From positions 248,001-312,000 of the forward strand of contig JBBELK010000461.1 of the NCBI GenBank assembly GCA_037783545.1: DNA of 64,000 bases, read 5' to 3'. This document shows positions 12,589 through 63,120 of the stretch, piece after piece. The notes under the pieces are model-generated. The model ran no database searches. It saw only the letters and a list, made by a program, of their open reading frames with translations, and had not been told where the DNA came from. The DNA comes from Henricia sp. BOLD:AAB3569 (lineage: Eukaryota; Echinodermata; Asteroidea; Spinulosida; Echinasteridae). Position numbers and translations under genes: made by a program. Position 1 is the first letter of the stretch. Each line of letters begins with the position of its first letter.

Positions 12589-12623
<35 letters not shown>

Positions 12624-27600: not shown

Positions 27601-30600
27601 GTGCCAAAACTACAAAAGCTCCCACATAGTCCATTGCAACTTCTTAATGTAATGTAATGTTGGTATTTCTCCCCCATGCCCTTCCAAAATCCACTGCCAC
27701 ACCCCCCCAAAGAACTTTTACCAGCCCCTACTGAAACCCACTTGGGATTTTCCGATACATTCAGTAGAAATGACTAACCAAGGTTAGCAAACATCTTCCA
27801 GATTACAGATCACGCTGTCTGATTGTTATCTAAGATGTACTATGAGAGAAATGAGCATTACCCAACAAGTTGAACATCGCCCAGAAAGAAATCATTAGCA
27901 ACGATGATGAATAGATCCTTCTTAATTTCCATTTCTCCCAAACCCAAAGGTATCATTTTGTGACCATTCATCCTAGCCTTTTCAGCATATTTGAAAAAGA
28001 CCCTTTGATAAATGGACAAATGGACAACATTTACGGTATGCATAAATTCAAAATATTTTGATCAGAGTTGAGGTATCAAAAAGTTGCTTAACCTACAAAA
28101 TGCTCAGATACAGGACTGTTGAAACCAACAAATAAATCCTCAATAGGTATAGACCCTTTGCATATGTGGCCCACTTAGGTGACATGGTTTCTTATTCAAA
28201 TGATGTGACAATAGATCCACAGAGCTACTACTCATGCATGACACACAGTGACAATGTGACTGCCCCCAAGATGGTACAGGGGGTCTATTATTAGGGGGTA
28301 TCTTCTGTTGTCTGACATCCCTTCAGCTTCTCCTCCTGAATGCTAACCAGATCTACACTAACAATCATACTGTATGTCAATCAATGCCTCGTTTACCCAT
28401 CTCCTTGGCTACAGAGTTCTCTATGGCAACCAGATTAAGGATCTCCCAGAGGGTATCTTCTGCGGTCTGACATCCCTTCAGCTTCTCCTCCTGAATGCTA
28501 ACCAGATCTACACTAACAATCATACTGTATGTCAATCAATGCCTTGTTTACCCATCTCCTTGGCTACAGAGTTCTCTATGGCAACCAGATTAAGGACCTC
28601 CCAGAAGGTATCTTCTGCTGTCTGACATCCCTTCAGCTTCTCCTCCTGAATGCTAACCAGATCTACACTAACAATCATACTGTATGTCAATCAATGCCTT
28701 GTTTACCCATCTCCTTGGCTACAAAGTTCTCTATGGCAACCAGATCAAGGATCTCCCAGAGGGTATCTTCTGCTGTCTGACATCCCTTCAGCTTCTCCTC
28801 CTGAATGCTAACCAGATCTACACTAACAATCATACTGTATGTCAATCAATGCCTTGTTTACCCATCTTCTTGGCTACAGAGTTCTCTATGGCAACCAGAT
28901 TAAGGACCTCCCAGAGGGTATCTTCCGAGGTCTCACATCTCTTCAGCTTCTTCTCCTAAATGCTAATCAAATCTCCTGCATCAGAGTTGGTCTCTTCCAA
29001 GATCTCATCGCACTCCACTTGCTGTAAGTATCAAAACTGCTTTACCAAAATATTTATAATATGACTTGTCTCTCATTCCATGTTTGGCTGTTTTATTTCA
29101 GTGATGATTAGACAGCATACCAAATATTGTATTTGTTACTTTGCCTAGTTGCGTACCCATTCAACACCAAGAAAACAAATTGGGTTGATAGGAAAAACTT
29201 AAGCTGGAAGAGCATCTGCCTGGTGTGTCAGAGGTCTCGTGTTTGAATCCCAATGAAGCCCATGTGATTTTTTTCTCATCCCATTTCTGATTGCTTAATT
29301 TCAAGGATGATTGGTCAATATACCACATATTGTTTGTTACTTTGCATACCCATGCAGAGACAATTTTGGGTTCATAAATCTCAGGTATAAGTCTCGGGTT
29401 TAAATAGTTATTTGCGAAACATTATTCGGGAAATAAACAATTGTACATTTCATTTCTAAATTTACATCCAAAACAACTGTCATAAACATCTTAAGATGCG
29501 GAAAATGGCAAGATACATGTAAGACTAGATCAAACCAGTAATCACGTACATTGCTACAGGGCTGAACAGTTTGTTTATCGAAAGAACTGAGGTTAACAAC
29601 GAACTGGCATATAGATCGTATCAAATACTTGCCATCTTGTAGGGCAGCTTTTGATATTTAAATTGGTCAACAATGTAACACAAATGGTGCAGTCGTGCAT
29701 GTCCTCAAGAAACAAAGAAACTGTCCTACAAGATGGCAGCTATACAATACAGTCTATGCAAAAATGTAACTTCGAAAAGGCCAAGTACTAAATTTGTACA
29801 ATTATTTTTTCAGGTCCTTGTACGACAATCAGATCATGTCCCTTGCCAACGGAACATTGACGCCATTACGGAACCTGCAGACCATGTAAGTACCATACCC
29901 TACACATTCTCTACCTAATACGTAACAGGTGACAAACCAAATACTGGTTTTCTACAGTCAGTCACGAAATCAATAGGTTTGGCAACATAAGGAAACGTGG
30001 CATTTATCATCCTTACAGCCGGCATTGTGCAAACGGGCGAGACTACAACAAGATAAGACCGCAGCGACACTCTGTAAATTAAGACGGATTGCTTACACAA
30101 ACTCTAACTCCTTGGGAATCCTGCACGAATTAAACCAACCCAGTTGGAGTACATTAGCTGACTGTTGGGGAATGCCTTTGGCTGATTTGAAACATGTTAA
30201 ACCTTGCAGACATCTAAAATCTCAAGCCAGCCGTTAAATAATTAGTAGTTCCTCTCTCATAAAGGGTGGGATACATAGACTTGGCATTCATAGAAAGGAT
30301 AGCCTACACCTCAAGCAGTCTGTTTTACCATCAATGTTGCTAATTTCACGGTCAATTTCAAGAACCTTGATGTATCCATGGCATGATATAGATCCAAGAG
30401 GCTATCCCCTTATGCCACCTCTCCCTCAGCCTCCCTGTCTGCTGTTAAGAGACACTCTCATCCCAGGAATTCCCAAGATTGATGGGACACAATGAAAACA
30501 TGGGGAAGTAATTTCTCTAGGTCAGACAGCGTGCATCATGTGCCCTCAAGGCTCTTGAAGTATTGGTTCGGATGTAATGTAGTAACATCTTTACTGTGTC

Positions 30601-51600: not shown

Positions 51601-54600
51601 CTCCAAGAAACATCCCACTCACAGCAACTGAGATGTAGGTCATCATCAGTATCTTATTTTTAATGTTTGCCATGCCCATGACTCTCCTGTAAAATGCTGA
51701 GTGCCTAGCAGATTGTGCCAAAAATGTGATTTTGTTTGCCCATGCACCGTTCTCCAGACATGTAACAAAAAAATGAAATATAAGTATCGGGCATGTGAAA
51801 GTAGACTGCTACATGTATGAACTGCATCTTAATTCCCATAACAACATCCCAAGATAAGAAGACTGACGTACCCTTCCTAAGATGCGTCTTAGCGCTTTGT
51901 GAAATCAGCCCCTCGTCATGTATTTAAATCAAGTAACGGGTCTCGCCAGTTTGTACAAATTATCAACTAGCCACTGAGACCTGGGATTAATTTCACAAAA
52001 GTTAAGATGAGTTGAATGCATCCTAATTCCATGAGCAATGTCCCAAGATAAGAAGAGTGACCCTTCCTAAGATGCTTTGTGAAATCGGCCCCTGATTGCA
52101 GAAATCATGTAGTGTGATACTTCATTGATTAATTAAAGAATGTTGGTAATTGTCTTTTTGTTTCCAGATACCTAGACTCCAACCAGCTGATAACCATCCC
52201 TGATGGAATGACAAACCTTAAGAGTCTTCACACACTGTAAGAACCTTAATCACTACCTTACTGTAGTTTAGGCCCTCACAAGACTGATAAAATAACAAGT
52301 CTATCATGAGTCTAGGCACAAGTCACAAAGAATGAAGGGTCTTTTCACGATAAAGGAGCAATTTGTCCTTTCGTAGCAGATTTTTTAAATAGCTTGTGAC
52401 TTGTATAAAGCGGGCCTCCCACTGTGCGATTTTTGCCACGAATGTCCAACAATTCTGTACGATTCAGTACGATTGTATATAGAGTCTATAGACAGTATCT
52501 GGTAATCTCATCAAATCGTACCTAATCGTTGGAAATTTGTGGCAAAATTTGCACATCGGGAGGCCCGCTTTAGACACACAGAGTTGTATCGACCTTGTGA
52601 TGGCCTTGGCTGAACACATGATTATTTTGTTTTTCTTAAGATGTTTTCCTCAGACATGTGATTATTAGGGATGTGATTATTCTGATTTTTGCTTTCATTC
52701 CTGTCATTTTTCATTTTGTCTACAGGGATTTAAGCACTAATATGATCACCATGCTGCCAGAGAATGCCTTTGCTAACATGACCAAGCTCTCAACACTGTG
52801 AGTATAACCATGCGTGTTTGAGTTATGATACAAATCTGTCCGATTGATGGTAAAGGGTTTATGTTGGGAAAAGTTTATTAATGTCTTTGTTAAAATGCGA
52901 CTGTGGTTTGTCATACGATGATAGTAAAATTGTATTGTCCTTTACGTCTGTGCATTTGCAACACCCCCTCCCCCCTCCCTCTCTCCCCCACGAAAAGAAA
53001 GCGAATGAAAAAAGGGGATGGGTGTTTATAGAATCTGCTTTCTTTATTTGACATACAGAGATTGTGAAAATCTTGAACATTACCGTAACATGATAAAATG
53101 TTTCCAGATCCAATTTCCTCAGACTTGAATATTCACATAGATTCCCTTTCTTGTGCAGAATCTTGAGTTACAATCGTATAGCCTGCATTCCAGCTGGCAC
53201 CTTCACTGGACTTCATTCTCTGCGAATTCTGTAAGTAATTTGGCCACGTCTGTCAACAAGACTAAAATAGAGCTTTCACGTGTACAGTGTTTTGTTTTTT
53301 TTATTTTTTTTTATTTTTTTTGCAAGTGTGGATGTGGATACACATACGTGTGTATGTACACATATGGAAGCGCCGCTTCAAAAAAACTTGGTGGTCCACT
53401 TGATGAGTTTTTAAATAGGCAACTTTTTCCACTATTTTGCTAAGCTCTGTCATATTGTTTTTTCGCAGGTCACTCCAGGGCAATGACCTTTCAACTCTTC
53501 AAGACGGCGTGTTTAACGATCTTCATTCCCTTACTCACATGTAAGCAGTTTGTAATATAGCACTGTGTAATATGTTATAAGCAGAGTCATTTCATAACTG
53601 ATTTCATTTAAACTACAACAGTGAGCATGTCACTACTGAATACAACCATTTCTGAAACGAATGGCTACAAAGAGCCAGGCATTGCCAAGTGTTCTGATCC
53701 ATATTGGTAGAGCCTCTTTTCCTTCAATTCATTGGTCTTGGGTTCAGGTCTAACCACAGTCCTTTTGTCTGTACAGTGCTTTAGGCAACAACCCATTGTA
53801 CTGTGATTGTCACATGAGATGGCTTTCTGAATGGGTAGCAGACGGTTATAAAGAGCCAGGCATTGCCAAGTGTTCTGATCCCTTTTGGTAAAGCCCCTTT
53901 TCCTTCATTTCATTGGTCTTGGGTTCAGGTCTAACCACAGTCCTTTTGTCTGTACAGTGCTATAGGCAACAACCCATTGTACTGCGATTGTCACATGAGA
54001 TGGCTTTCTGAATGGGTAGCAGACGGTTATAAAGAGCCAGGCATTGCCAAGTGTTCTGATCCGTATGATCTCCGAGGCAAACTCATCTTGACTGCACCGT
54101 CAAAATCCTTTGTTTGTAACGGTGAGTCAAACCAGTCAGTCCGTGTATAATCTTTCTTTTATCAAATCTGTAAGTTCGAACTTTACTCTGTTAGTAAATT
54201 TTAACAACATGCACATTTTTGCAAGGGACAAGGTTCAACCTGACGAAAAAATAAAGGGTTAGGCAAAAGATAGTTTGCAATAGGGAGTTTTAGGTTGTCA
54301 CACCGACCAACTATGTGGACTGCGACGTGATGACGTCAATGTTGAGGCTTTGCACATGTGTCAAGTCGTCTCTCACGTTCCCTGCCACAATCAAGAATGA
54401 GGCAACTGTGGTTTTGGCATGCGCAAAGCCTTAACAAGGACGTCATCAAGATTGCCCAAACAAAACAAGTTTCTTTAAAATAATTTCATAGAACTGTCAG
54501 GACATTTGTGGTTCTTAACTCGAAGCAAATATATTGATCCGTTTCTCATTTGATGTCGTCTTGTTCAACAGAGGAACCAGACATTGCAATCCAGGCTAAA

Positions 54601-57600
54601 TGTGACCCGTGTCTATCAACGCCATGTGAAAATAACGGCGTGTGTTCAGTTAGCTTGACGGAACGTTATACATGCCAATGTCAAGAAGGATTCAAGGGAC
54701 AAGACTGTGAGGTGCAGCTAGATGCGTGTGAGGATGCCCCATGCATAAATGGTGGACATTGTAGGAACCTGGTTGGTGGATTCAGGTCAGTTGGGGTAAC
54801 AATAATGACATATTGCCTGGCATTGAGGTCAATAGTGGTCATTGAGGTCAATAGAGCTCATCTATGTAACTGTGAGGTGCAGCTAGATGCGTGTGAGGAT
54901 GCCCCATGCATAAATGGTGGACATTGTAGGAACCTGGTTGGTGCATTCAGGTCAGTTGGGGTAACAATAATGACATATTGCCTGGCATTGAGGTCAATAG
55001 TGGTCATTGAGGTCAATAGAGCTCATCTATGTAACTGTGAGGTGCAGCTAGATGCCTGTGAGGGTGCCCCATGTATCAATGGTGGACAATGTAGGAACCT
55101 GGTTGGTAGATTCAGGTCAGTTGGTGTCAAAATAATGACATATTGCCTGGCATTAAAGTGCTCATTGGGGTCAATAGTGCTAATCTATGTAAAGTACAGC
55201 TAGATGCATGTATTATTATTATTATTTCTTTCTGGTATTCATACCAAGGATTCGTCAATAGTGCTCATTGCACTGTACTCTCGCAAGCGTGAGGAAACCC
55301 ATATGAAGAATTAGAATTAGAAATGGCCAGAGACACCGGGGAATATCCCCTTGCTCTTCCCGAAAGAATGATCTGGGATCTTTAGAGTGCGTTACCATTT
55401 ATACCCAACACACTGGACCAACGGCTTTTCATCCCTTCCGAAGGATGGAGCAAGTGTGGTTGAGTGCCTTGCCCAAGGGCACAGGTACCGCAGCCGGATT
55501 CGAACCCGCAACCCCTATGATGACTTATTACCAGTACATGCTTTGGTTTCAGTTGACTAACTCAGGCCAATTGGCCTAATATGAAAGCGGTTTTTAGATA
55601 TGACTGATAAAATAACAATCCATAATTGAAAGGTATTATAACCAAATGTCAGTGTACATGGTTTACGGTAGCACCATGTGAATACCTCATTTGTATATGT
55701 GTGGTTCTGACAAATGTCATGTTTATATTGGCAGGTGCGAATGCTTACCCGGCTTTGAGGGAAGCATGTGTGAGGAGAACATTGATAACTGCAAGAACCA
55801 TGAATGTCAGAATAACGGAATCTGCCAAGATGGGATCAATAACTATACATGCTACTGTGGCATGGGATACTCGGGTAAACAGTCTAAATCCTAACATACC
55901 CCTTGCGGTTTACGTTCAAACTGGCTTTAAATCAATCTGCTTATGCTACCATATGATAACTGTTTTCCATGGCTTGCTGTTGTGTTGTAAAAAAGGAAAT
56001 ATCAGCAACAAGTTTGTCGTTGTTTAAAATTTGAATAAAACCTTGGGTTTTTTATTGCATTTTAAAAAAAAATCTCATTTGTTTAAAAAATAGTTTCATC
56101 TCTGGTGTCAGTTCAATGCCGGGTAATTCTGACATTGAGTGATTAAATACCTGCAATTAATTAGTTAAAATTATTATTTGATTTTAATCCTCAAGGAACA
56201 CGATGTGAAGTGGACAAAGACCTGTGTGCTGTCGGCACCAATCAGTGTCAAAATGGAGCAGTTTGCCACGATTTGGGGCGCAGCTATAGGTGAGGAAATG
56301 AATGCACCCGTCAATCTGTCAAATGGCCTTTTGTGTGTTTCACATAAATAGCATCTGATAAGTACTGACGTACAGTAAACCTCGGATAAGTCGGATCCAA
56401 CGGGACCAATCGATTTTATCCGACTTAAGCACAAATCCGACTTAACCGAAGACCAAAATACGACTACAGATTAATTGATTTCCAACCACGCAACGGTCGA
56501 CAGTCCAAAAAAAGCATGAAATACAGTAGCACTGCTTTTATTTCAACACAATAACGTTATTTTAACGCTACATTTTCCTTTTCACAAATGACAAATAATA
56601 GGCAACAAAAAAGTAAGCATCATTTTGCCGGGCGCGATCATGCATTTGTGCCTCGAGCGTGTGTCGCCATCATCGTGGCCAGCCATGCAGTATGTAACTG
56701 CTCTGCAGCCTGTGATCACGTGCGCACATAGACTTTTTTCAAGTCTGCGTAATTTGTGATTCTTAATTTGTCTTCGTAAGTGCGTGATTAGACGACATGT
56801 TGCCAAATCACTATAGCCACGATAGCGCTAACTGTGACTTGTGCTACATATACAGTATGCACAGCAAAAGTACACGTACGTAATGTACATGCACACATGT
56901 ACAATGTACACAGGCTGATTTCGAGGCAGGCTGTTAACGTCAAAATGATCGATTTTCAATCGGGAAATTCGTCAACTTCCCGCGGTAACTGGAGTGAAAT
57001 TAATATACGAACATGTCAACTTTCACCAATCCGACTTAAAAGAGGTAAAACACACAGGAATTGAACAAATGTTCTAGGTTGATGTGTCCGAGATAAGCAA
57101 AAATCCGACTTATGCGATCCGACTATTAAGCGATGATTTTTATTAGGAGTGGCATGCAAACGTTCCAGGCGATTTTGTCCGAGATAAGTAAAAATCCGAC
57201 AAACGAATCCGACTTAAAGGCCCTGTAGATGATCTGTTTTTGAGCGATTCTGCGAATAAAACCATTATAAATCAAAAGAAAGACATCAACAAACTCATCC
57301 GAAGAAATTCAGCTTTGTCAAATGTACCACGTTTAAAAAAAACATGAAAATCCATATGCATTTTCCTGGTCTTGGCGGGGTGTTTCAAATATTCGTTCTT
57401 AGTTGATCGGGTACTATACTGCGTCATGCACTGCGTGTGCGCGCGTTCCATAAAAATGCATCGCGTTGGAACACGCACACGGAGTACACAGCGCCCATGC
57501 ATTTTGGACCGCGTAGATGCGAACCAAAAATAAGTAAATCGTTTGCAAACGATCTAAATAATTTCATCTTTACGAATTATTTTCTGGTAAAATTATATCA

Positions 57601-60600
57601 TTCGAGCGAAAACCTTTCATTGGATAGTTGCTATTAATTCAATCTTTACTTTCAGAACTTTTCCCCTGTAAACTCGTCGATTACTTTTTGGGGTCATTGC
57701 AAATGATACACTGGGCCTTTAAGCAAGGTTTACTGTACTTCCATTCACATGAATAGCGTCTGATGTCCTGACGTACTTCCATTTCACATGCACACTTAGT
57801 ATCCAGATGACCAGACTACATTGTTGTTGCTATGTAATGTGACCAGGTGTATGCAACAAGTACAGAATCAATACCATGTTCACGGTAGGAGAGAATGGTT
57901 TAAAACAACCAGACTGTTGGTTGCTAGGCATTGGCGTGCACCACGTAGCAACAACAGCATAGTATGTGACTTTCTAAACTGCACTTCTCTTGGAAAGTAA
58001 ATAATTTAAGGCATTGGCCGTAGTGCCAAGGATACTTGCAAAAGGCTATAATGGTTGTCTTCTCAAATTATTGAAATGTGCTACAGCAATAGCATTGTTC
58101 TGTGTAAGTTCACCCTCGGTTCATTGTGTTTAGGGGCCGTCCAAAGTTGTCAACATTTTCACAGTTATACTGGAAGTGGTACTACAAGACCTTCTTCGAT
58201 CCCTCGCCCCAAAAAACTACTGGTATTTTACTGGTAGTAAAATCAACATTTTACTACCATGAAATGTCAACATTTTGCAGTGCATATCAAGTTGTAAGCA
58301 GCCCCGACCCCCTTTGTAGTACCGTGAAAATGTTGACAACTTTGGACAGCCCTTAGATCGAATGTTGATTGATAAAGTACTTCTTTTATGATGACTTGTT
58401 TAATCTTTCTTTTTTCCTTTAAGGTGTGACTGTCCCCCAGCCTTCCGCGGTGTAAACTGCTCCGAGTCATTCTCAGACTGTCGATCCCATAGTTGTGAGA
58501 ATAACGGTGAATGTATACAGGAGGGAGACGAGTTTATCTGCAAATGTCGGCCGGGATACACAGGCACGACGTGCCAAGACCATATCGTAGTTTTCCCACA
58601 GACAAGCCCGTGTCAGTTCCATGACTGCCAGAACAATGCGTTGTGCTACGAGGATGCCAACAGCGGTGAATTCGGTTGTCGTTGCTTACCCGGTTACATG
58701 GGCAATAAGTGTGAAGTAGTCACGAGCCTGACATTCTCACAACGTAACTCGTTCCTGAGTTTGGCATCGCCGCCAGACATGTCGCAACCAGTCAACTTCA
58801 CGATAGTTTTCTCTACAACAGAAGAGAACGGCATCTTATTGTACCACGGTGGGCCACCGCCTCGTAAAGTAGACCACCTCGCCGTGGAACTCTTCCGAGG
58901 TTACGTTAGGATTAGTTATGACGCGGGAAACATCCCAGCTGCGACGATGTTCGGAGATCAGAAGCTAAACGACGGTCAATTCCACACGCTACATGTCATT
59001 GTGGTGCAGAGGAACATTTCGATAAAAATCGACAACGAAGAAACACAGAATGCTACAAACGAAGGACCCACTGAATATCTCTTGGTCGACGCTCCTATGT
59101 TTATTGGCGGTGTGCCAACAAAAGAGAATGCATTTGCCGTTGCTAAGTGGCATCTTAGAAATGGATCAAGTTTCCAAGGTACATTTGACTTTTATAGCCA
59201 TATATTTAAAGGAGAAACAAAAGACATTGTGGAAGTTATTGTTACTACAAAAAGGAAGAAATAAGTCTTTCCACAGTAAAGGGGGCATTTTTCCAGAAAA
59301 TACCTTTGTCTGTATCAAAATAAAAGAAATAAGTTTCAGTTGTTCCGAAGAGATAACTTAGGCCCAAAAAGGGTTACGAATAGTGTGACAACATGCCTTT
59401 CTAAAAACCCTGTGTACAAATTTCCAATATACACTCGTAACCGGGACGGACACTTGTGTTACATTTTAGGCCGTCCCAGTTATGAGCGTATATTGGAAAT
59501 TTGTACACGGGGTTTTCAGAAAGGCATGTTTGTCACACTATTTGTAGCCCTTTTTCGGCCCAAGTTATCTAATCAGAACAACTTAAACTTATTTATTTTA
59601 ATTTGAGACCAGACAAAGGTATTTCCTCGAAAATATGGTCTGTGTTGCCAAAAAGCCCCCTTTACCGTGGAAAGACCCAAATATGAAAAGTATACAAACT
59701 TTACAAAGAATGACAATTGCAGCGAAACCTTGTTGTATGGGCACTGCCATTTTATGTGGAAACTGGGCAACAATGAGTTGCACTTGTCTTTTTGTTTCTT
59801 AGGTATATCCTTCAAATAAAAGGTTTACATTATACGGTACATCTAAACTCCTGAATGTTCATACTAGACATAACTTTTTAATCGTTCATTGAACTCGCCC
59901 CACAATACAGTATAATTCAGAAAAAAATACTGCAAAGGAAATAGCTTTGAAAAAACGTTTCTTTACATTTTAAACTAAAAATTAACAGTAACTACAATTT
60001 AGAGGTTGCACATTTGACCTAAGTTAGATTGCACAGTACCCCTAAATGCCTTTCCTTGGTCAATACAACAAATGAAAACTAAAGTGAACCTGTATGTTTA
60101 CCTGCTACTGATGTTAATACACACACCCAGTTTATCACGTTGAAATTGACTTTATGCACAGGTTGTTTTTATGCGTGAGGGACGGACAATCAATAAAATT
60201 GACAAAAACTACAATTTTTTACATACATGTATTTTCAACTATTTCTTGAAAATGTGATGGCACAGTGTGCCCAGCCAAATTTATTCTGTTAATTTTTGTA
60301 TTATGATTTATTTACTGTTCAAGGTATTATTTTGATTAATTTAGGAAATTTTTTGAAATTTTCATCCAGTGTTTTGTTTTGGATCACGCTTTTCTATGTT
60401 TTTTATAATATCCCTCAATTAAAGTTTCTATATTTTCTAACTTTCCCTCAAGTTTCACATTTTATTATTATGTCTTTCCAACTTAACACAGGATGCATGC
60501 GTGGTTTCTTCATCAACAATATCCCAGTCACAACCCAAGATTCTGAAGTATTGGGCGTGGTTTCAGGATGCCCCACCCTCGATATGCCTGATCCTTGTGA

Positions 60601-63026
60601 TAACAATCTGTGTGAACACGGGTTCTGTCAGCGTGCCGTTCCTACAAGCTATACATGTGACTGCCAAGATGGTTGGATGGGGCAGATGTGTGACAGACGT
60701 AAGTAGAAAACTGCTTAGGGTTTGATTCACACCGACTTACCGCGCACAATAACTTGCTTAAATTTGACGCGCATTGCTTTGAGAAAACAAACACGGGTTC
60801 TGCCGGCGTGCTGTTCCTACAAGCTACACATGTGTTGCTTTGAGAAAACAAACACGGGTTCTGCCGGCGTGCTGTTCCTACAAGCTACACATGTAATTGC
60901 CAGAATGGTTGAATGGGCCAGATGTGGGTCTGTCCGTACTAATGCGTACAACTGATAACTTGGAGAGTGAGACATAAAAGTGACTAAACGGCAAAACATT
61001 TGCCCCCTTTTGGCCTTAATTACATTCCCAATCACTTATTTTCTGTGATGACCAAAAATTCTTGAAGATGTCACGTTCGTAACAGAGACAGACATTAATT
61101 GCCATCTGAAAAGTGCTGAAGGCATTGATTACATTACAAAATAATACCCACACATTATGTATTAGCTGTAAAAGATTGATGAAACATTAACCTAAACCAA
61201 TTGTGTGTTGATTTCTTGCAATTACAGTGCCAAATAAGTCACGTATGTGATCACTGGACAGACATTTTGGGCCAATCGTCTGTCTTTGTGACAAACGTGT
61301 TTGCGTGAATCACCATAGACGACTGCCCCAGCCAAGTACATTACTTTTTGCAGACAATATTGTTGTAATTAATGAAAACTAGAGAATAGACACAATTCTT
61401 ACATGGCCTGGTATGTACTCGGAATGTAATAAAGAAATTACCATAAACAACTTCATAGTTTTTATCTACTTTTGAAAAAAGTCACAAAAGTGTACGCTTT
61501 AGTGTGGACAGACCCGTGTGTGATAGATGCAAGTAGAAGACTGCGAGTGATCGTGATCCCAATTTCTAAGGTTGGAGTCACATTGAGCCTTTCACGTGTC
61601 AAATTTGACGCATGTCTCTTTGAGAATAAAGTGGTGTGAAGGAAAGTTGGTCTGAACAAACGCACTGAAACACTTCGCCCAAGGTGATTCTGTGGTTTTC
61701 AGAGCAAATTTCCTCCACCAAATGTGCGTGCATTATTAACACGTGAAATTAGGCTCAGTGTCAATCTGTTCTTTATGTAAAGAACTGCAAACATTTCTGA
61801 AATTCTTGGAAAATTTGTCAATCTCAGGATTCCCAACTAGGCTTGAGCAATTCGATTCCACTTATTATGCATCCATTCTCAAAACAAACATCGCCATTGA
61901 GATTAGACAAACTGATACGAAACGCTGCTAAATTCCTATAATTTTGTAATTTCTGCATCATTAACATTAATCGATTTGCGATTCTGATTCCCACCTTATA
62001 ATTGTTTGTAAACAACTCCAGAGAGGATTCACCCAAGCTTACTCCCAAGCTCTAAAAATGCTTCAGGATTGTCAGCTGACAATCTGGGAGATTTTTAGAA
62101 TTAAGTGTCATCAGGAATCAAACTAAGTTTGAGCAATATATATGAGCATCCAACCGCTATATAGTGGTTGGATACTCGTATATACTGCTCAGACTTAGTT
62201 TGATTCCTGATTCCTATGTACTCGTATCAACAAAGGTATTCTACTTTACCTTTGCTATTTCAAGCCATTGTCTTTTGCAAACGGGTGCTTCATTACCTCA
62301 CTACAGTCAAATATGTTTTTTGAGGGAAACAGTGCACACAGAGTGTAAATGGCGCCCTCTCTTGATTGAGTGTAAACGGCACCCTCTCTATCTTGACTCG
62401 GCAGAAAGTGTACATAGTGTGTAAACAGCGCCCTCTCTTGATACTCTCCATGCATACTAAGATGGTACTGATTGCACCCAACTATTCTATCAGCCAAGAA
62501 GGTGTACTTTCTCAGAGATCTTACATTGTTATAGAAAACTTTCCCGAGATCTTTGAAAAAATTTCAAAATATTGAAGAAATCTTGCAGTCCATGAGATCA
62601 ATATAGACACATTGCCAGAAATTGTTATGAACACTTTTTTTGAGAAAAGTGTCAAAAGGGTAGGGCTGTTGTTTCAGGACATGAAATTTACAAAATTCCA
62701 CCCATCCCTTCAAAAAACTGCTTTTTTGAGATGTCCAAAAACTGATTACCTTATGTTTTGTTGTCTATTTCTCAGCAACTACATGTACTGGTCAGGTAAC
62801 ATCAGAAATCATAGCAGTTGGAACTTGCCGTAGTCGTGAGCCGTTCAACAACATCGCATGTAATGGTGAATGCGGTATCTCATGCTGTCGTCCTCAGCGT
62901 ATTCGCACCAAGGTCGTCACGCTTTACTGCGATGATGGCACAGAGGTCACGCATAAGGTCAAGTTAGTCCGGAGTTGCGCGTGCCAGGAGTGTATTCAGA
63001 GGACGGACAGTTTAAGCGAGCCGTAG
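884..63026 (+). CDS. slit: slit gene, 3' part (26 exons; D1 LRRCT to CTCK and stop)
   Basis: Secreted extracellular-matrix glycoprotein that binds Robo receptors and repels axons and migrating cells (family knowledge). The exons join in constant phase: one base completes an upstream codon, then 1,249 codons and a TAG at 63024. Domain order: LRRCT of D1, three complete LRRNT-LRR-LRRCT domains (D2-D4), six EGF repeats, laminin-G, a seventh EGF, and a C-terminal cystine knot. Complete Slits are roughly 1,500 residues, so about 250 are missing upstream. D2 carries the main Robo-binding surface in the family, and all of its exons are present. No frameshift or internal stop occurs in the selected exons. 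Introns range from 202 bp to 22 kb. The total was checked by exon lengths and phases; no transcript evidence was available. Confidence 0.96.
1048..3396 (+). other. intron (2.3 kb)
   Basis: GT-AG intron (GTAAGA to GTCTAG). No coding potential was recognised. It is AT-rich with short T and A runs and no clear repeat beyond low-complexity stretches such as the T-run near 1575-1585. Confidence 0.7.
3397..3538 (+). CDS. slit: slit exon: D2 LRRNT cap
   Basis: The cysteine motif [15 protein letters not shown] followed by [13 protein letters not shown] is the N-terminal cap of the second Slit LRR domain, the Robo-binding one. The first GT completes Gly from the previous exon. It ends in phase 2 at GTGAGT. 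142 nt. The sequence before the first cysteine is a short acidic linker. Confidence 0.94.
4674..5150. mobile_element. TIR element, MITE-like, GAGCTCGGGATC-rich
   Basis: The ends are inverted copies: TTACACCATGTTCACACTGG at the left against a right end whose complement reads TTACACCCTGTTTACACTTG. The GAGCTCGGGATC motif recurs inside in both orientations. About 0.48 kb with no transposase ORF, hence non-autonomous. Family unknown. Confidence 0.6.
5569..5602. repeat. poly-C run followed by A-run
   Basis: An almost uninterrupted run of more than 20 C, then AATAAAAAAAA. Simple low-complexity sequence, prone to length error. Confidence 0.8.
8219..8715. mobile_element. MITE-like element with 13-bp TIRs
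   Basis: Begins GCGTGTTTCTATT and ends AATAGAAACACGC, an exact 13-bp inverted pair; flanking TAAAA and TTAA extend it loosely. The inside contains CCGGTAAA motifs in both orientations and the 11-bp tandem array next to the left end. No transposase is present. Confidence 0.6.
8231..8294. repeat. 11-bp tandem repeat (TGTTGAAGATC)
   Basis: Six near-identical units of 11 bp; the last two change TGTT to TATT. It lies just inside the left terminus of the MITE-like element. Confidence 0.85.
9420..9535. repeat. short tandem repeat, ATACACTATACTT-like
   Basis: Degenerate repeats of TACATTA, CATACACTA and CTTATACACTATA inside the non-array insert of the AACTGG element. Confidence 0.6.
10511..10831. 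repeat. inverted block and near-perfect palindrome in the AACTGG array
   Basis: From about 10511 to 10788 the array units run in the opposite orientation (CCAGTT, AAAACAGTTTAAAACC). At 10789 the orientation flips back. The junction is a palindrome with 42-bp perfect arms around one central C at 10789, spanning 10747-10831. This is an inversion inside the minisatellite. Confidence 0.85.
12248..12622 (+). mobile_element. tRNA-derived SINE (type A) with TAA-repeat tail
   Basis: The head resembles a class II tRNA: GTGGCCGAGCGGTTTAGG (A box) and acceptor-like GGTACCGT pairing with ACGGTACC about 90 bp later. Next come a body with TGGGCAAGGCACTCAACC and CCATCCTTCGGAAGGGATG and a tail of about eleven TAA units. 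The same body occurs inverted at about 55204-55520. The GGCAAGGCACT core resembles the Deu-type SINE domain as I remember it; that link is an inference. The 5' end overlaps the GGTACC at the end of the AACTGG element. Confidence 0.8.
12628..12795 (+). mobile_element. tRNA-derived SINE (type B)
   Basis: The A-box-like TAGCTCAGCTGGTAGGGC and B-box-like GGTTTGAATCC lie 30-40 bp apart, followed by a tail with CATCCCATGTTTGGTCATTT and ACCATACCAAACACTG. The tail recurs near 14205, 29070 and 29270, showing a dispersed family rather than a functional tRNA. Confidence 0.7.
14205..14270 (+). mobile_element. SINE type B tail fragment
   Basis: TAGGTTTGGTCGTTTCATTT and CTATACCAAATATTGTATTC match the 3' part of the type B SINE. 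The tRNA-like head is absent. Confidence 0.5.
14377..15050. mobile_element. TIR element, MITE-like, with repeated AGTCCAATG motifs
   Basis: The left end GGTGTTCCCATTGGACT and right end AGTCCAATGAGAACATGCC are inverted copies with a few changes. The AGTCCAATGGG motif recurs inside in both orientations, as do GCGGAAAGTT-type blocks, so the element is built of inverted sub-repeats. No transposase. Confidence 0.6.
15600..15770 (+). mobile_element. tRNA-derived SINE (type C), degraded
   Basis: Shares CCATGTTTTGAGACCAC, a damaged A box, AGTTCGAATCCCGGTAGAGC and a CATTTGTATC tail with the better-preserved copy at 42388. Confidence 0.65.
17322..17341. repeat. AAAT microsatellite
   Basis: Five AAAT units in a row. 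Confidence 0.85.
18791..19022. repeat. direct repeat of about 70 bp, 160 bp apart
   Basis: ACACCCCTCTGTTTGGCC to CACCATTTAGCCC at 18791-18860 recurs almost exactly at 18951-19020. The sequence between the copies is unique. Recent local duplication. Confidence 0.8.
20541..20993. mobile_element. possible MITE with TAAAGGCCCG terminus
   Basis: The left end TAAAGGCCCGTTTACACTTG and a right part TTTTGAGTGTAAAC form an imperfect inverted pair, with GATTCGCC and GGCGAATTG inverted inside. The terminus resembles those at 50542 and 52406. Boundaries are uncertain. Confidence 0.45.
22937..23000. repeat. purine-rich G/GA low-complexity tract
   Basis: More than 60 bp almost only G and A with a few T, giving strong strand asymmetry. 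A mirrored C-rich tract lies at 3570-3640 in the same intron. Confidence 0.7.
25179..25392. mobile_element. single arm of the foldback family
   Basis: From TTTACGAGCGTATATTGG to GTGGAAAGACCC it matches, with scattered changes, the right arm of the large foldback at 59265-59676. Only one arm is present here, ending about 170 bp before the next slit exon. Confidence 0.75.
25563..25634 (+). CDS. slit: slit exon: D2 LRR1
   Basis: 72 nt coding for [18 protein letters not shown] and so on, an LRR of the LxxNxIxxIPxxAF type. The first base completes Leu from the D2 cap exon, and the last two wait for the next exon (Ile). Acceptor CTTACAG, donor GTAAGT. The RLEQN phrase is a Slit D2 hallmark. Confidence 0.95.
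25837..25908 (+). CDS. slit: slit exon: D2 LRR2
   Basis: 72-nt LRR module, [18 protein letters not shown], only 202 bp after the previous exon. Acceptor CAACAG, donor GTAAGT. Phase identical to the neighbouring modules. Confidence 0.95.
25909..28879 (+). other. intron (3.0 kb) ending in tandem exon copies
   Basis: GTAAGT to GGCTACAG. The first 2.4 kb has no recognised feature apart from short TCACATG-type repeats at 25925-26000. The last 580 bp are the tandem partial copies of the next exon. Confidence 0.75.
28296..28879 (+). pseudogene. tandem partial copies of the D2 LRR3-4 exon (155-bp period)
   Basis: A 155-bp unit repeats almost perfectly. Exon starts are at 28415, 28570 and 28725, before the true exon at 28880, and a 5'-truncated piece starts at 28296. 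Each unit holds acceptor TTGGCTACAG and the first 95 or so nt of the exon, then intron-like ACTAACAATCATACTGTATG. The unit length is not a multiple of three. The only visible donor (GTATGT) would give a 112-nt exon in the wrong phase. The copy at 28725 has lost its AG (ACAA at 28721-28724). They are most likely exon debris. Confidence 0.9.
28880..29023 (+). CDS. slit: slit exon: D2 LRR3 and LRR4
   Basis: 144 nt, two LRR modules fused in one exon: [15 protein letters not shown] and [18 protein letters not shown]. Acceptor GGCTACAG, donor GTAAGT. It is chosen over the three upstream copies because only this one runs through both repeats to a donor in the right phase. Exon sequence at its end (CTCATCGCACTCCACTT) is absent from the copies. 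Confidence 0.94.
29060..29345 (+). mobile_element. SINE type B fragments
   Basis: 29070-29140 carries the tail (CATTCCATGTTTGGCTGTTT, CATACCAAATATTG). 29195-29345 carries a damaged head with GTGTTTGAATCCC and a second tail. This makes two overlapping or tandem insertions inside a 790-bp intron. Confidence 0.55.
29814..29885 (+). CDS. slit: slit exon: D2 LRR5
   Basis: 72-nt module, [18 protein letters not shown], then RNLQTM. Acceptor TTTTCAG, donor GTAAGT. It corresponds to the last repeat before the D2 cap. Confidence 0.95.
30700..30862 (-). mobile_element. tRNA-derived SINE (type D), minus strand
   Basis: On the minus strand: GCCATGGCGGAGCGGTCTAG, then a perfect B box GTGGGTTCGAATCCC, then a tail with TTTGCCCAAGGATG. 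The head looks like a Leu or Ser tRNA, but the acceptor ends do not pair well, so it is read as a SINE rather than a tRNA gene. Confidence 0.6.
32455..32540 (+). mobile_element. degraded tRNA-type SINE fragment
   Basis: GCCCAGTGTGTCAGAGGTCTCGG resembles the anticodon-to-T-arm part of the type B copies. The A and B boxes are broken. Confidence 0.4.
32889..33357. repeat. 18-bp minisatellite (CATAAGTTGGTCGCATCT)
   Basis: About 25 units. The core 33010-33260 is near perfect, with degenerate units and lost trinucleotides at both edges. A chance ORF through it reads a periodic VASHKL peptide; it has no start context or homology and is not a gene. Confidence 0.9.
36414..36638. mobile_element. MITE with TACTGTAAAA termini
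   Basis: Begins TACTGTAAAAACTGAAATATTCGCG and ends with its near complement (CGCGAAAATATTGGC then TTTTACAGTA). GCGAAAATA blocks recur inside in both orientations. TA at each end fits a Tc1/mariner-type target site. About 225 bp, non-autonomous. Confidence 0.8.
37566..37654 (+). pseudogene. remnant copy of D2 LRRCT exon
   Basis: GGCACCTACATG, then CTCGGAATCCTCTCATCTG and CTGCAACCTG, then directly AGAGACTCAATCAGATGAAA and AGTATC. These are the beginning and the end of the following exon (37680), with about 100 nt deleted between. No acceptor AG and no donor. A decayed tandem duplicate. Confidence 0.85.
37680..37843 (+). CDS. slit: slit exon: D2 LRRCT cap
   Basis: [16 protein letters not shown], then GARC and FKCK give the four cap cysteines of D2. 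164 nt, acceptor AATCCAG, donor GTAATC. Ends with one base of the next codon (Asp). Confidence 0.95.
37915..38085 (+). mobile_element. degraded SINE (type E)
   Basis: TTGTGGGTTCGTATGTCACC (damaged B box), then GTCCGTGGGCAAGACACTT and CCTTGGCCAGGTAGCC. Related in layout to the type A body (GGGCAAGRCACT). Confidence 0.45.
38148..38391. mobile_element. palindromic MITE with 90-bp arms
   Basis: The left arm from ACCAGGAGCAGGAGGTACC through ACTTATTTCAAGTCTGA is repeated inverted at the right with about 15% change. The short spacer holds TATAATGTACC. Near-complete foldback, no ORF. Confidence 0.75.
39626..39776 (+). CDS. slit: slit exon: D3 LRRNT cap
   Basis: Reads the linker [14 protein letters not shown], then [14 protein letters not shown] and [11 protein letters not shown]: the N-cap of the third LRR domain. 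Acceptor TATTAG; using the CAG six bases later would remove two residues but keep phase, so the exact start is slightly uncertain. Donor GTAAGT. 151 nt. Confidence 0.93.
39810..40690 (+). pseudogene. six tandem partial copies of the D3 LRRNT exon (about 160-bp period)
   Basis: Copies of the exon's last 110 nt plus donor and first intron bases follow the true exon. The GAGCT|GTAAGT junctions fall at 39936, 40096, 40256, 40410, 40570 and 40682. The last copy is shortened internally. None keeps the exon's 5' part or an acceptor. Read-through from the true exon meets a stop at once (CTG TAA), so use of the later donors would not give protein. They are silent duplicate donors. Confidence 0.92.
40800..40890 (+). 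mobile_element. SINE type A fragment
   Basis: GTGGTACCCGTGCCCCTTGACC, AGGCACTTAACCACAATTGC and CCATCCTCCACAATGATG match the body of the type A SINE. The tRNA head and TAA tail are missing. Confidence 0.55.
40996..41070 (+). CDS. slit: slit exon: D3 LRR1
   Basis: 75 nt: [19 protein letters not shown], then INLRKL. One residue longer than the standard LRR module; the first D3 repeat of human Slit2, as I recall it, is also 25 residues. Acceptor TTTCTAG, donor GTAAGT. Confidence 0.94.
41103..41348. mobile_element. MITE with 23-bp TIRs (TATTCCTGAA)
   Basis: TATTCCTGAATGCGTGAGGGC at the left and GCCCTCATGCGTTCAGGAATA at the right differ at one base over the first 20. CG-rich interior. TA at both ends. 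The ORFs in it show no domain. Confidence 0.8.
42388..42565 (+). mobile_element. tRNA-derived SINE (type C)
   Basis: The head GGCTTCATAGCTCAATTAGT (A box) and CGGTTCAAATCCCGG (B box) with a GGCT/AGCC acceptor remnant look like a tRNA of about 73 nt at 42412-42484. The flanking CCATGTTTTGAGACCACC and the tail recur at 15600, so this is a dispersed element. Whether the tRNA part is still transcribed by Pol III cannot be told here. Confidence 0.7.
42704..42775 (+). CDS. slit: slit exon: D3 LRR2
   Basis: 72-nt module, [18 protein letters not shown], then ENLYEL. Acceptor CAACAG, donor GTAAGA. Confidence 0.95.
44386..44416. repeat. poly-C run
   Basis: More than 24 consecutive C near the 3' end of the intron. 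Like the C- or G-runs at 5569, 38741 and 48797, its length may be unreliable. Confidence 0.8.
44657..44728 (+). CDS. slit: slit exon: D3 LRR3
   Basis: 72-nt module, [18 protein letters not shown], then KKLRTL. Acceptor TTTCTAG, donor GTAAGT. Preceded by a C-rich run and pyrimidine-rich tract. Confidence 0.95.
44953..45129. mobile_element. MITE, TAATAAGAG termini
   Basis: ACAGTTGAACATCCTTAATAAG at the left is matched by the complement of CTTATTATCGAGGTTCGATTGT at the right; CTTGTTATAA motifs occur inside. About 177 bp. Confidence 0.65.
45744..45853. mobile_element. 110-bp palindromic MITE
   Basis: GGGGCGCGTTCAATAGTGCA and TACGT at the left are mirrored at the right with three changes in 30 bp. 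The interior is only about 50 bp. Confidence 0.8.
46262..46345. repeat. 18-bp GC-rich tandem repeat (CGCGCGCACGGAATTTCA)
   Basis: Four and a half units, each with a CGCGCG core and GGAATTTC. Very CpG-rich compared with the AT-rich surroundings. Confidence 0.88.
46493..46672. mobile_element. palindromic element, arms about 80 bp
   Basis: CAAATATTGATGACTGCT through GATCTTAAG is mirrored by CAAGATCACC through AGCAGTCATTAATATTTG, with a short GC-rich spacer. No ORF of note. Confidence 0.75.
47693..47764 (+). CDS. slit: slit exon: D3 LRR4
   Basis: 72-nt module, [18 protein letters not shown], then RSLRLL. Acceptor CTTCAG, donor GTGAGT. Confidence 0.95.
48331..48402 (+). CDS. slit: slit exon: D3 LRR5
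   Basis: 72-nt module, [18 protein letters not shown], then IELSTV. Acceptor CCATCAG, donor GTAAGC. Confidence 0.94.
48560..48775 (-). mobile_element. SINE type A remnant, minus strand
   Basis: CACTGGACCAATGGCTTTACATCC, GATAGAGCAATTAGG and CCTTGTTCAAGGG correspond to the complement of the type A body, strongly mutated. Confidence 0.55.
48830..49345 (+). pseudogene. decayed tandem copies of the D3 LRRCT exon start
   Basis: Three or four blurred units of roughly 130 bp repeat an intron end plus exon start. Examples are TTACAGGAACTTGATAGGCA at 48959 and ATACAGGAACTTAATGGGCA then GTCCACTCAACTGT at 49102; a piece AACTTGATGTGGCAGTTCAC is at 48837. All resemble the true exon start at 49849 (TTACAG, CAATCTGATGGGTAATCCAC). 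Frames are broken, so not functional. Confidence 0.7.
49849..50012 (+). CDS. slit: slit exon: D3 LRRCT cap
   Basis: [16 protein letters not shown], then NPIC and FSCE. 164 nt, acceptor CCTTACAG, donor GTACGG. Ends with one base of the next codon (Glu). Confidence 0.95.
50542..51026. mobile_element. 485-bp MITE with 50-bp TIRs (TAAGGCCCGCTTC)
   Basis: TAAGGCCCGCTTCAAACTTC through GAATTAAATTCAACTTG is mirrored at the right end with a handful of changes, and TA remains at each side. Further inverted copies of GGCACAAGCACG occur inside. Its terminus resembles those at 20541 and 52406. Confidence 0.85.
51320..51425 (+). pseudogene. remnant copy of D4 LRRNT exon
   Basis: ATCATTGTAATGTGAAT followed by TGCCTGCTGTCCGTAGCCTG, CAGGGAGTGT and GGTAGCGTGG repeats intron end and exon of the next exon about 133 bp downstream. 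The acceptor and nine exon bases are deleted and the frame is lost. Confidence 0.85.
51502..51634 (+). CDS. slit: slit exon: D4 LRRNT cap
   Basis: [17 protein letters not shown], then [12 protein letters not shown]-cap of the fourth LRR domain. Acceptor GCCAACAG, donor GTAGGT. 133 nt in the expected phase (enters with two bases, leaves with two). Confidence 0.93.
52168..52236 (+). CDS. slit: slit exon: D4 LRR1
   Basis: 69 nt, [20 protein letters not shown]. One residue shorter than the usual module; the first D4 repeat of human Slit2, as I recall it, is also short. Acceptor TTTCCAG, donor GTAAGA. Confidence 0.94.
52406..52572. mobile_element. 167-bp MITE with 45-bp TIRs (TAAAGCGGGCCTCCC)
   Basis: The right end mirrors TAAAGCGGGCCTCCC and the following TTTTGCCAC and TCCAAC segment. 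Flanked by TA. Non-coding. Confidence 0.85.
52726..52797 (+). CDS. slit: slit exon: D4 LRR2
   Basis: 72-nt module, [18 protein letters not shown], then TKLSTL. Acceptor CTACAG, donor GTGAGT. Confidence 0.95.
53159..53230 (+). CDS. slit: slit exon: D4 LRR3
   Basis: 72-nt module, [18 protein letters not shown], then HSLRIL; ILSYNR is typical of this Slit repeat. Acceptor TGTGCAG, donor GTAAGT. Confidence 0.95.
53469..53540 (+). CDS. slit: slit exon: D4 LRR4
   Basis: 72-nt module, [18 protein letters not shown], then HSLTHM. Acceptor TTCGCAG, donor GTAAGC. Confidence 0.95.
53660..53957 (+). repeat. tandem 181-bp copies leading into D4 LRRCT exon
   Basis: The intron holds one full and one partial extra unit of 181 bp, each ending in the intron tail CTTTTGTCTGTACAG. 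The unit includes the first 100 or so nt of the following exon and then intron-like CCTTCATTTCATTGGTCTTGG. Identity with the true exon is very high, so it is recent. Confidence 0.92.
53777..53887 (+). CDS. slit: possible in-frame cassette exon (duplicated half LRRCT)
   Basis: This copy keeps the same acceptor as the true exon (TTTGTCTGTACAG) and gains a plausible donor (TTTTG|GTAAAG) where the copy diverges. It is 111 nt, enters and leaves in the same phase as the LRR exons, and has no stop. Inclusion would add 37 residues beginning [16 protein letters not shown] before the real cap, with three cysteines inside and a fourth made at the junction. Whether it is spliced is unknown; the default transcript is assumed to skip it. 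Confidence 0.35.
53958..54121 (+). CDS. slit: slit exon: D4 LRRCT cap
   Basis: [16 protein letters not shown], then IAKC and FVCN. The 164-nt length equals the other three caps. Acceptor CTGTACAG, donor GTGAGT. Chosen over the upstream copy because only this one contains the complete cap up to the last cysteine. Confidence 0.94.
54122..54571 (+). other. intron (450 bp)
   Basis: GTGAGT to TCAACAG. Possible inverted pair around TTTGCACATG and CATGCGCAAAG (54350-54430) with GACGTCA motifs; no coding potential. Confidence 0.6.
54572..54785 (+). CDS. slit: slit exon: EGF1 and first half of EGF2
   Basis: Reads a short linker with [17 protein letters not shown], the [16 protein letters not shown] end of EGF1, then [15 protein letters not shown] of EGF2. 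Acceptor TTCAACAG; donor TTCAG|GTCAGT. 214 nt, leaves two bases of Arg that the next exon completes. Two more copies of its 3' end with donors follow in the intron. Confidence 0.93.
54786..55203 (+). repeat. in-frame tandem copies of the EGF2 half-exon (165-bp period)
   Basis: The exon end and following intron repeat exactly at 165 bp: the GAGGTGCAGCTAGATGC motif starts at 54709, 54874 and 55039, with a remnant near 55193. Donors GTCAGT lie at 54786, 54951 and 55116. Because 165 is a multiple of three and no stop occurs before 55201, using the second or third donor would extend the exon in frame by 55 or 110 residues. Each addition would hold a half EGF ([14 protein letters not shown]) plus a hydrophobic linker. 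Default use of the first donor is assumed since it gives a canonical EGF2. Confidence 0.88.
55204..55520 (-). mobile_element. tRNA-derived SINE (type A), minus strand
   Basis: On the minus strand: GGGTTCGAATCCGGCTGCGG (B box), TGCCCTTGGGCAAGGCACTC, CCATCCTTCGGAAGGGATG, then the ATAATAATA tail. It is the inverse partner of the copy at 12248. Confidence 0.82.
55735..55874 (+). CDS. slit: slit exon: end of EGF2 and most of EGF3
   Basis: [15 protein letters not shown] closes EGF2. [17 protein letters not shown] and [13 protein letters not shown] are EGF3, with the DGINNYTC phrase typical of Slit EGF3. 140 nt, acceptor TTGGCAG, donor GTAAAC. Confidence 0.94.
56196..56289 (+). CDS. slit: slit exon: end of EGF3 and first part of EGF4
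   Basis: [17 protein letters not shown], then [13 protein letters not shown]. 94 nt, acceptor CCTCAAG, donor GTGAGG. The two-residue-longer spacing between the first EGF4 cysteines resembles that of other Slits. Confidence 0.92.
56371..57737. mobile_element. pogo/Tigger-like TIR element (1.37 kb), non-coding
   Basis: TACAGTAAACCTCGGATAAG at the left end and AAGGTTTACTGTA at the right end. CAGT-AACCTCGGATAA is the pogo/Tigger-type terminus as I know it, with TA target sites. TCCGACTTA motifs repeat near both ends. No transposase ORF survives, so it is a deletion derivative. The flanks TCTGATAAGTACTGACG and TCTGATGTCCTGACG look duplicated. Confidence 0.7.
58131..58355. mobile_element. 225-bp MITE with 32-bp TIRs
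   Basis: TAGGGGCCGTCCAAAGTTGT and CAACATTTTCAC at the left are mirrored at the right with two or three changes. TA at both ends. A second inverted pair (AACATTTTACTACC) lies inside. Ends 70 bp before the next exon. Confidence 0.85.
58424..59178 (+). CDS. slit: slit exon: end of EGF4, EGF5, EGF6 and most of laminin-G
   Basis: The largest exon, 755 nt. [14 protein letters not shown] ends EGF4; [14 protein letters not shown] is EGF5; [15 protein letters not shown] is EGF6. Next comes the laminin-G (ALPS) domain with [53 protein letters not shown] and APMFIGGVP. The stretch before EGF6 (VVFPQTSPC) aligns with the Slit N/C proteolytic cleavage region. Acceptor CTTTAAG, donor AAG|GTACAT. Confidence 0.95.
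59265..59676. mobile_element. 412-bp foldback (two long inverted arms)
   Basis: From GTCTTTCCACAGTAAAGGGG to CCGTGGAAAGAC. The arms are about 185-200 bp and mirror each other with moderate divergence around a short spacer near 59455-59470. The outer ends pair (GTCTTTCCAC with GTGGAAAGAC). It starts only 87 bp after the LamG exon donor. A lone related arm is at 25179. Confidence 0.85.
59677..60491 (+). other. rest of intron, no further feature seen
   Basis: AT-rich sequence up to the acceptor AACACAG. No exon or repeat recognised. Confidence 0.6.
60492..60698 (+). CDS. slit: slit exon: end of laminin-G and EGF7
   Basis: [20 protein letters not shown] and VVSGC finish LamG, with the GC-x-R turn that follows the LamG body in Slits. 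[17 protein letters not shown] and [16 protein letters not shown] form the only EGF after LamG. 207 nt, acceptor AACACAG, donor GTAAGT. Leaves one base (C). Confidence 0.94.
60780..60935 (+). pseudogene. two remnant copies of the EGF7 exon interior
   Basis: AACACGGGTTCTGCCGGCG and TGCTGTTCCTACAAGCTAC occur twice, 64 bp apart, at about 60790 and 60854. The second copy runs on through ATTGCCAGAATGGTTGAAT, matching the true exon but with a stop where the exon has Trp. No splice sites. Confidence 0.88.
60936..62775 (+). other. intron remainder
   Basis: Contains the palindrome at 62111 and repeats at 61565-61770 (related to 540-770) and 61840-62050 (GGCTTGAGCAATTCGATTCC, related to 43443-43555 and 49340-49640). 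62345-62440 has three units with GTGTAAA and GCGCCCTCTCTTGAT or GGCACCCTCTC. No coding potential. Ends at TTTCTCAG. Confidence 0.6.
62111..62210. repeat. 100-bp loop-less palindrome
   Basis: Two 50-nt arms, starting TCAGGAATCAAACTAAGT, meet without spacer at CTAT|ATAG. They differ at five positions, all transitions. An RNA from either strand would fold into an almost complete 50-bp duplex. Probably a MITE. Confidence 0.85.
62776..63026 (+). CDS. slit: slit last exon: CTCK cystine knot and stop
   Basis: The C-terminal cystine-knot: ten cysteines in the pattern CTG, GTC, CNGEC, SCC, YC, SCAC and EC. Spacing CxGxC followed by CC and final CxCxxC is the CTCK signature. TAG at 63024-63026 ends the protein after SLSEP. 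Acceptor TTTCTCAG; enters with two bases (completing Pro). Confidence 0.95.
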
Positions 63027-63120
63027 TAAAGGTACGCGCCTCCCAGGAATCGTATATAAATTTGTATAAAAAGTATTCTACTGAAAAATAATAACAATAA
63101 AAAACTTGTATGCTATAGCC
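63027..63120 (+). terminator. slit: slit 3' UTR and poly(A) signal
   Basis: The 3' UTR starts after TAG. An AATAAA hexamer lies at 63096-63101, about 70 nt after the stop, followed by a T-rich region near 63130-63180. The short 3' UTR is a prediction; longer forms are possible. Confidence 0.6.

Follow-up and report, generated by a model that had tools for sequence, protein, structure and literature searches.

Why should several exons of one gene lie beside partial copies of themselves? The question is raised by a slit gene on the + strand of a 64,000-nucleotide stretch of Henricia sp. DNA (hereafter the window), in which a first-pass annotation had noted pieces of eight exons, each with its splice junction, repeated in the adjacent introns. 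The annotation read these copies as independent events of different age that involve exons and not random intron, suggested a self-comparison of the window as a check, and proposed either a local mutational bias or an ongoing exploration of exon variants.

The window covers slit beginning with the last part of the first LRR domain. Our gene model comprises 26 exons and runs from the D1 LRRCT exon (884-1047) as far as an exon that encodes the cystine knot and contains two stop codons at 63024-63029. Every exon has an AG acceptor, and a GT donor follows exons 1 to 25. When joined, the 26 exons form a single open frame that is intact without any copy, and no copy belongs to it. Domain order is Slit-like (D1 LRRCT, D2, D3, D4, EGF repeats, LamG, EGF7, cystine knot). 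The best match of the D3 domain in the PDB was 2v70 (Slit homolog 2; 235.9 bits), which we take to be the human protein; 1w8a (Slit protein), presumably that of Drosophila, scored 168.3 bits, on a par with some other LRR proteins. As a marker of lineage, miR-218 was set aside: no match to it was found within the window, and no miR-218 family was among the Rfam matches listed. An Rfam tRNA match at 42412-42484 (39.6 bits) lies inside a repeat (42384-42544) shared with 15598-15751, and is therefore probably a tRNA-derived SINE, not a tRNA gene.

Each exon, extended by 30 nt per side, was compared by Smith-Waterman alignment with up to 2 kb of upstream and downstream flank, with 60 shuffles per flank as the null; for the D1 LRRCT and cystine-knot exons one flank was shorter than 2 kb. 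Eight of the 26 exons scored above every shuffle of their flanks, and these are the same eight that had been listed in the first-pass annotation. Their best scores were 195 for D2 LRR3-4, 56 for D2 LRRCT, 246 for D3 LRRNT, 38 for D3 LRRCT, 55 for D4 LRRNT, 260 for D4 LRRCT, 219 for EGF1-2 and 102 for LamG-EGF7, against a shuffle maximum of 34 over all flanks; the faintest of them, D3 LRRCT, compares with a maximum of 27 for shuffles of the flank concerned. Within flanks of up to 2 kb, the remaining 18 exons scored 25 or less and none rose above its own largest shuffle, with D3 LRR2 and D4 LRR2 lying one point above the 95th percentile of shuffles in the downstream flank. Self-comparison of the window made five arrays visible over exon edges, as did Tandem Repeats Finder (Table 1). 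As to sidedness, acceptor-side copies precede the exon (D2 LRR3-4, D2 LRRCT, D3 LRRCT, D4 LRRNT and D4 LRRCT) and donor-side copies follow it (D3 LRRNT, EGF1-2 and EGF7). Acceptor copies would lie upstream and donor copies downstream because, of the duplicates of a junction, only one leads on to the remainder of the exon. Any tolerated duplication of a boundary would show this layout, which we infer to be no separate evidence.

Table 1 Functional slit exons and the copies beside them, in window positions. ORF, the open reading frame of the 26 joined exons.
Feature	Position	Strand	Description
Functional exon D2 LRR3-4	28880..29023	+	144 nt, phase 2, bounded by AG and GT; in ORF
D2 LRR3-4 array	28293..28974	+	155-bp units x 4.4, functional one included; before and into exon
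Functional exon D2 LRRCT	37680..37843	+	164 nt; in ORF
D2 LRRCT copy	about 37568..37650	+	single, degenerate, upstream; inner deletion; 3' part shifted 182 bp
Functional exon D3 LRRNT	39626..39776	+	151 nt; in ORF
D3 LRRNT array	39664..40713	+	about 160-bp units x 6.4; copies after exon
Functional exon D3 LRRCT	49849..50012	+	164 nt; in ORF
D3 LRRCT copies	48896-48999, 49036-49146, 49221-49263	+	three, degenerate, upstream; acceptor edge; score 38; from alignments
Functional exon D4 LRRNT	51502..51634	+	133 nt; in ORF
D4 LRRNT copy	51337..51411	+	single, degenerate, upstream; shift about 151 bp; acceptor AG lost; score 55
Functional exon D4 LRRCT	53958..54121	+	164 nt; in ORF
D4 LRRCT array	53663..54066	+	181-bp units x 2.2; before and into exon
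Functional exon EGF1-2	54572..54785	+	214 nt; in ORF
EGF1-2 array	54704..55211	+	165-bp units x 2.7 plus decayed end; exon into intron
Functional exon LamG-EGF7	60492..60698	+	207 nt; in ORF
EGF7 donor-edge copies	60615..60938	+	shifts 175 and 236 bp; exact 61-bp secondary duplication inside

The units share a common anatomy. Primary shifts in seven of the eight exons are 151, 155, 160, 165, 175, 181 and 182 bp (mean 167, SD 12), and the degenerate D3 LRRCT copies are spaced by 140. Across the five clear arrays, exon makes up roughly 80-113 nt of each unit and intron the rest: a full D2 LRR3-4 unit joins 60 nt of intron tail with its acceptor to 95 nt of exon, and the D3 LRRNT unit, with one spacing of 154 in its array, joins 113 nt of exon and the donor to 47 nt of intron. 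All copies read at the eight loci contain one exon end, and a complete exon copy with both splice sites was seen at none of these loci. The splice sites themselves persist to differing extents. At D3 LRRNT the seven donor sites (the functional one and six more) share a single 9-mer; the EGF1-2 donor 9-mer is retained in the functional exon and both full copies, where the frame remains open; the full D4 LRRCT copy has an acceptor identical to the functional one; and the acceptor AG is missing from one of the three full D2 LRR3-4 copies. Among the decayed loci, the three D3 LRRCT copies retain an acceptor-like AG (acceptor scores 11.1, 6.0 and 7.5), the acceptor-like site of the D2 LRRCT copy scores 2.2, this copy being recognised from its flank score, the shift of its 3' part and reading by eye, and the donor of the EGF7 copy is weak (-1.7).

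Other repeats adjoin some of these loci. An inverted-repeat element at 49684-49822, whose ends read by eye as TTAATTAAGGTTTGTT / AACAAACCTTAATTAA, stops about 27 bp upstream of the D3 LRRCT acceptor and separates this exon from its old copies. Two segments, 12302-12607 and 55211-55515, form an inverted pair with 91% identity that includes a run of the trinucleotide AAT and probably represents a dispersed element; the second of them adjoins the EGF1-2 array at its decayed end, and shorter matches occur at 40814-40882 and 48643-48723.

We then compared the functional units with the consensus of their copies. At D2 LRR3-4, the three-copy consensus departs from the functional unit at 2 of 106 array-side positions (intron tail plus the first 46 nt of the exon, a match of 104/106) and at 9 of the next 49, of which 40 match (P 0.0006); at D3 LRRNT, comparison with the consensus of three equal-length copies gave 6/22 differences in the far part and 4/138 elsewhere (P 0.0005), the cut points for both polarities having been picked after the data were seen. 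D4 LRRCT displays no such polarity, its array side holding five of the seven differences; EGF1-2, with one difference from its first copy, is uninformative. Since in two arrays the array-side part is near-identical to the copies and the far part has diverged, exchange between the edge of the functional exon and its array has most likely taken place. Copy number and decay do differ between loci as annotated, from arrays of 155-181 bp units to degenerate copies, but because copies homogenise, differing identity provides no clean date for the events.

Arrays of comparable anatomy have been described in lancelets under the name of mirages. In the sections of PMC3087553 that deal with B. floridae globin genes, BflGb6 is reported with units of 150-160 bp, six and three of them on two haplotypes, and BflGb9 with a unit of 157 bp; these mirages sit at either exon end, their inner copies are homogenised with the borders excluded, RT-PCR suggests regular splicing of the genes, and their origin is termed unclear. 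Two of 15 globin genes carry one, in addition to a degenerate case, BflGb13. The same sections quote Canestro et al. 2002 for an Adh3 mirage with units of 10-72 bp that shows length and somatic instability, whilst an excerpt of PMC3902484 describes 60- and 108-bp repeats over the splice sites of lancelet PGBD5, citing Adh and troponin C as well. Like the BflGb6 and BflGb9 mirages, the slit arrays span one exon-intron boundary (four clearly, with EGF7 reaching its donor), involve either boundary (five acceptor-side, three donor-side) and, at D2 LRR3-4 and D3 LRRNT, are homogenised inside and diverged at the border. Unlike the globin mirages, they mark eight exons of a single gene, several of them decayed; at three loci (D2 LRRCT, D3 LRRCT and D4 LRRNT) degenerate copies lie beside the exon. 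They share with the Adh3 mirage the nature of boundary-spanning minisatellites, although the Adh3 units are shorter (PMC3087553, in part), and with PGBD5 the imperfect tandem copies that take in intron-exon boundaries, although PGBD5 is one gene with two repeats of shorter unit (PMC3902484, in part). Literature searches for repeats of the mirage kind, outside which most subscription journals lie, listed PMC3087553 and PMC3902484, neither of which deals with slit; among the matches listed on amphioxus and Slit (10 of 199), no title concerned repeats of this kind. Judged by sequence features, the slit copies appear to be of a kind already described, in lancelets, and to be unusually dense.

We consider it probable that the slit copies are minisatellite-type tandem duplications straddling exon-intron junctions, equivalent to the amphioxus mirages and inert at the protein level. 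A segment of about 150-180 bp over one splice junction would be duplicated in tandem, probably by replication slippage or template switching. As a copy has one exon end, the spliceosome would pair the two splice sites that belong to the real exon, giving normal mRNA, and the extra copies would become intron, upstream if they hold the acceptor end and downstream if they hold the donor end. Unequal exchange may then expand and homogenise some arrays, together with the portion of the functional exon that faces the array; other arrays would cease exchange and subsequently decay. The copies would have no role at the level of the protein.

Does this process favour exons? As a control we drew 400 random intron segments, overlapping one another and of exon-matched lengths below 300 nt, from a sample that leaves out exons, exon arrays and two satellites. 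Scores of at least 38 were reached by 8/26 exons and 29/400 intron segments (one-sided Fisher P 0.0008), and scores of at least 100 by 5/26 and 3/400 (one-sided Fisher P 3e-5), all three of these segments belonging to one locus, 18790-19024. This locus, a tandem duplication of recent date within an intron (73-bp match at 97%, shift 162 bp), contains no exon of our model and is spaced like the exon arrays. Counted as loci (pairs at most 1000 bp apart, which leaves out one wider pair, 12707/14196, with a shift of 1489), local tandem repeats with scores of at least 38 number 18: seven overlap an exon, one is the D3 LRRCT array (48873-49334) and ten are intronic, comprising two short-unit satellites, four loci shifted by 162-203 bp and four shifted by 76-91 bp. 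A test that rotated the exon map relative to these tandem loci gave P 0.03-0.05 with seven exon loci of 18 or 16, seven and not eight as the D3 LRRCT array is here scored as non-exonic. Binomial tests, with an expected overlap with any exon of 12.6%, gave P 0.0005-0.002, on counts of 8/19, 8/17, 7/16 and 5/6 where the proper counts are 8/18, or 8/16 without satellites. All of these enrichment tests are post hoc and were made on one gene picked for its pattern, and the exon enrichment of local copies is likely rather than proved. The annotated bias towards exon edges is thus upheld in slit by the Fisher tests and more weakly by rotation; that the copies concern exons as opposed to random intron overstates the case, ten of the 18 loci being intronic.

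The introns hold further repeats. A large degenerate minisatellite with a AACTGGTTTT-type 11/43-bp unit occupies 8850-12140 in the 22-kb D2 intron, its middle block being inverted (about 10512-10792), and copies of a repeated element, both direct and inverted and about 86% identical, are present at 25173-25392 and 59301-59679.

Affected exons are 133-214 nt long. Eight of the 13 exons of at least 130 nt are affected and none of the 13 shorter ones, all of which are below 100 nt (Fisher P 0.0016); as a cause, however, exon length weakens to P 0.016-0.045 once the larger target is allowed for. GC was likewise set aside, the affected and unaffected long exons being similar in GC with no clear difference.

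Whether any copy could be used was assessed from its coding signals. Use of a copy's splice site would cause a frameshift at D2 LRR3-4 (155 bp), D3 LRRNT (160 or 154 bp) and D4 LRRCT (181 bp). The 165-bp EGF1-2 unit is in frame and open, so mis-splicing of this array could make the protein longer. Between the functional D2 LRR3-4 exon and its three full copies, whose exon part is free of stops, there are 8-9 synonymous and 1-2 nonsynonymous differences (P 0.007, uncorrected, for one of several arrays examined), an excess that would be unlikely for neutral copies and so counts against them; it would be accounted for in part by recombination with a divergent allele, and in part likewise by some constraint on the copies. 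Within 28926-28973 the differences are mostly synonymous though identity in the neighbouring intron tail is about 97-98%. Synonymous to nonsynonymous differences were 3:3 in the second EGF1-2 copy, 1:1 in D4 LRRCT and 6:4, with a stop, in EGF7, and a pooled excess (21/34 differences, P 0.02), summed by hand and partly by eye with no tree, is not relied on. Three D3 LRRNT copies contain an in-frame TAG. A cryptic cassette exon in the D2 LRR3-4 copies, from the acceptor to a GTATGT motif, was considered and rejected, as its 112 nt are out of frame.

Several other readings have to be weighed against inert duplications of exon edges. Tandem duplication may be ordinary and random, with exonic cases noticed more and recognised for longer through their one conserved copy; we hold this to be possible yet the less favoured view, for the majority of local tandem loci is intronic and the rotation test is modest, whereas the recent arrays, which are immune to slow decay, are the most exon-biased (those with scores of at least 100), and the binomial tests also speak against it. 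The bias to exon edges could alternatively stem from duplication, by slippage or small circular DNA, of segments the size of a nucleosome or an Okazaki fragment where nucleosomes are well positioned on exons. This proposal is tentative. It agrees with the narrow 151-182 bp range in seven of eight exons, with the restriction to longer exons even after correction, and with the similar units of the globin mirages (PMC3087553, in the sections cited), but it sits poorly with the 61-bp unit in EGF7, with the 76-91 bp shifts of half of the non-satellite intronic loci, with the shorter units given for PGBD5 and Adh3 in the excerpts of PMC3902484 and PMC3087553, and with the similar GC of affected and unaffected long exons.

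A different proposal would have the copies, at least those of D2 LRR3-4, serve as alternative exon parts under selection. Tandem duplication of whole exons is known from mutually exclusive exons, and slit resembles such cases in having tandem copies of exon sequence within one gene, but each slit copy holds one exon end. Selection on copies would fit the stop-free D2 LRR3-4 copies with their synonymous excess, the splice sites retained in several arrays and the open, in-frame EGF1-2 array. We nevertheless find it improbable given the lack of any complete exon copy among the eight loci, the frame-shifting units, the out-of-frame D2 cryptic exon with an acceptor AG lost in one of three copies, the in-frame TAGs of D3 LRRNT and the relatively greater nonsynonymous change in the EGF1-2, D4 LRRCT and EGF7 arrays; the suggested exploration of exon variants is likewise unsupported. 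Very improbable is an assembly artefact, such as the merger of two divergent haplotypes. B. floridae is described as highly heterozygous and its BflGb6 mirage as aberrantly assembled in the draft genome (PMC3087553, same sections), which calls for caution over the slit copy numbers, taken from a single assembly, and the D4 LRRCT array has close to two copies, at 96% identity; however, arrays of several diverged copies alongside degenerate single copies would be hard to produce by an allelic join, and the BflGb6 mirage persisted when rebuilt from trace reads.

It is conceivable, though we would not yet favour it, that the edges of longer exons are subject in this lineage to a recurrent mutational process in which segments of nucleosome length (about 150-180 bp) are duplicated, often enough to mark 8 of 26 exons of the conserved slit gene, and that functional exon ends undergo turnover like the units of a minisatellite. 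In that case mutation would be concentrated at exon edges, from which new introns and parts of exons would keep arising. Mirages have so far been reported gene by gene in lancelets; slit has eight, at differing stages of decay, and its arrays supply the unit lengths, borders and polarity for testing mechanisms. They suggest that mutation at exon edges can be repeat-like, which bears on intron gain, and also on how splicing ignores strong decoy sites, such as the seven identical donor 9-mers of the D3 LRRNT array.
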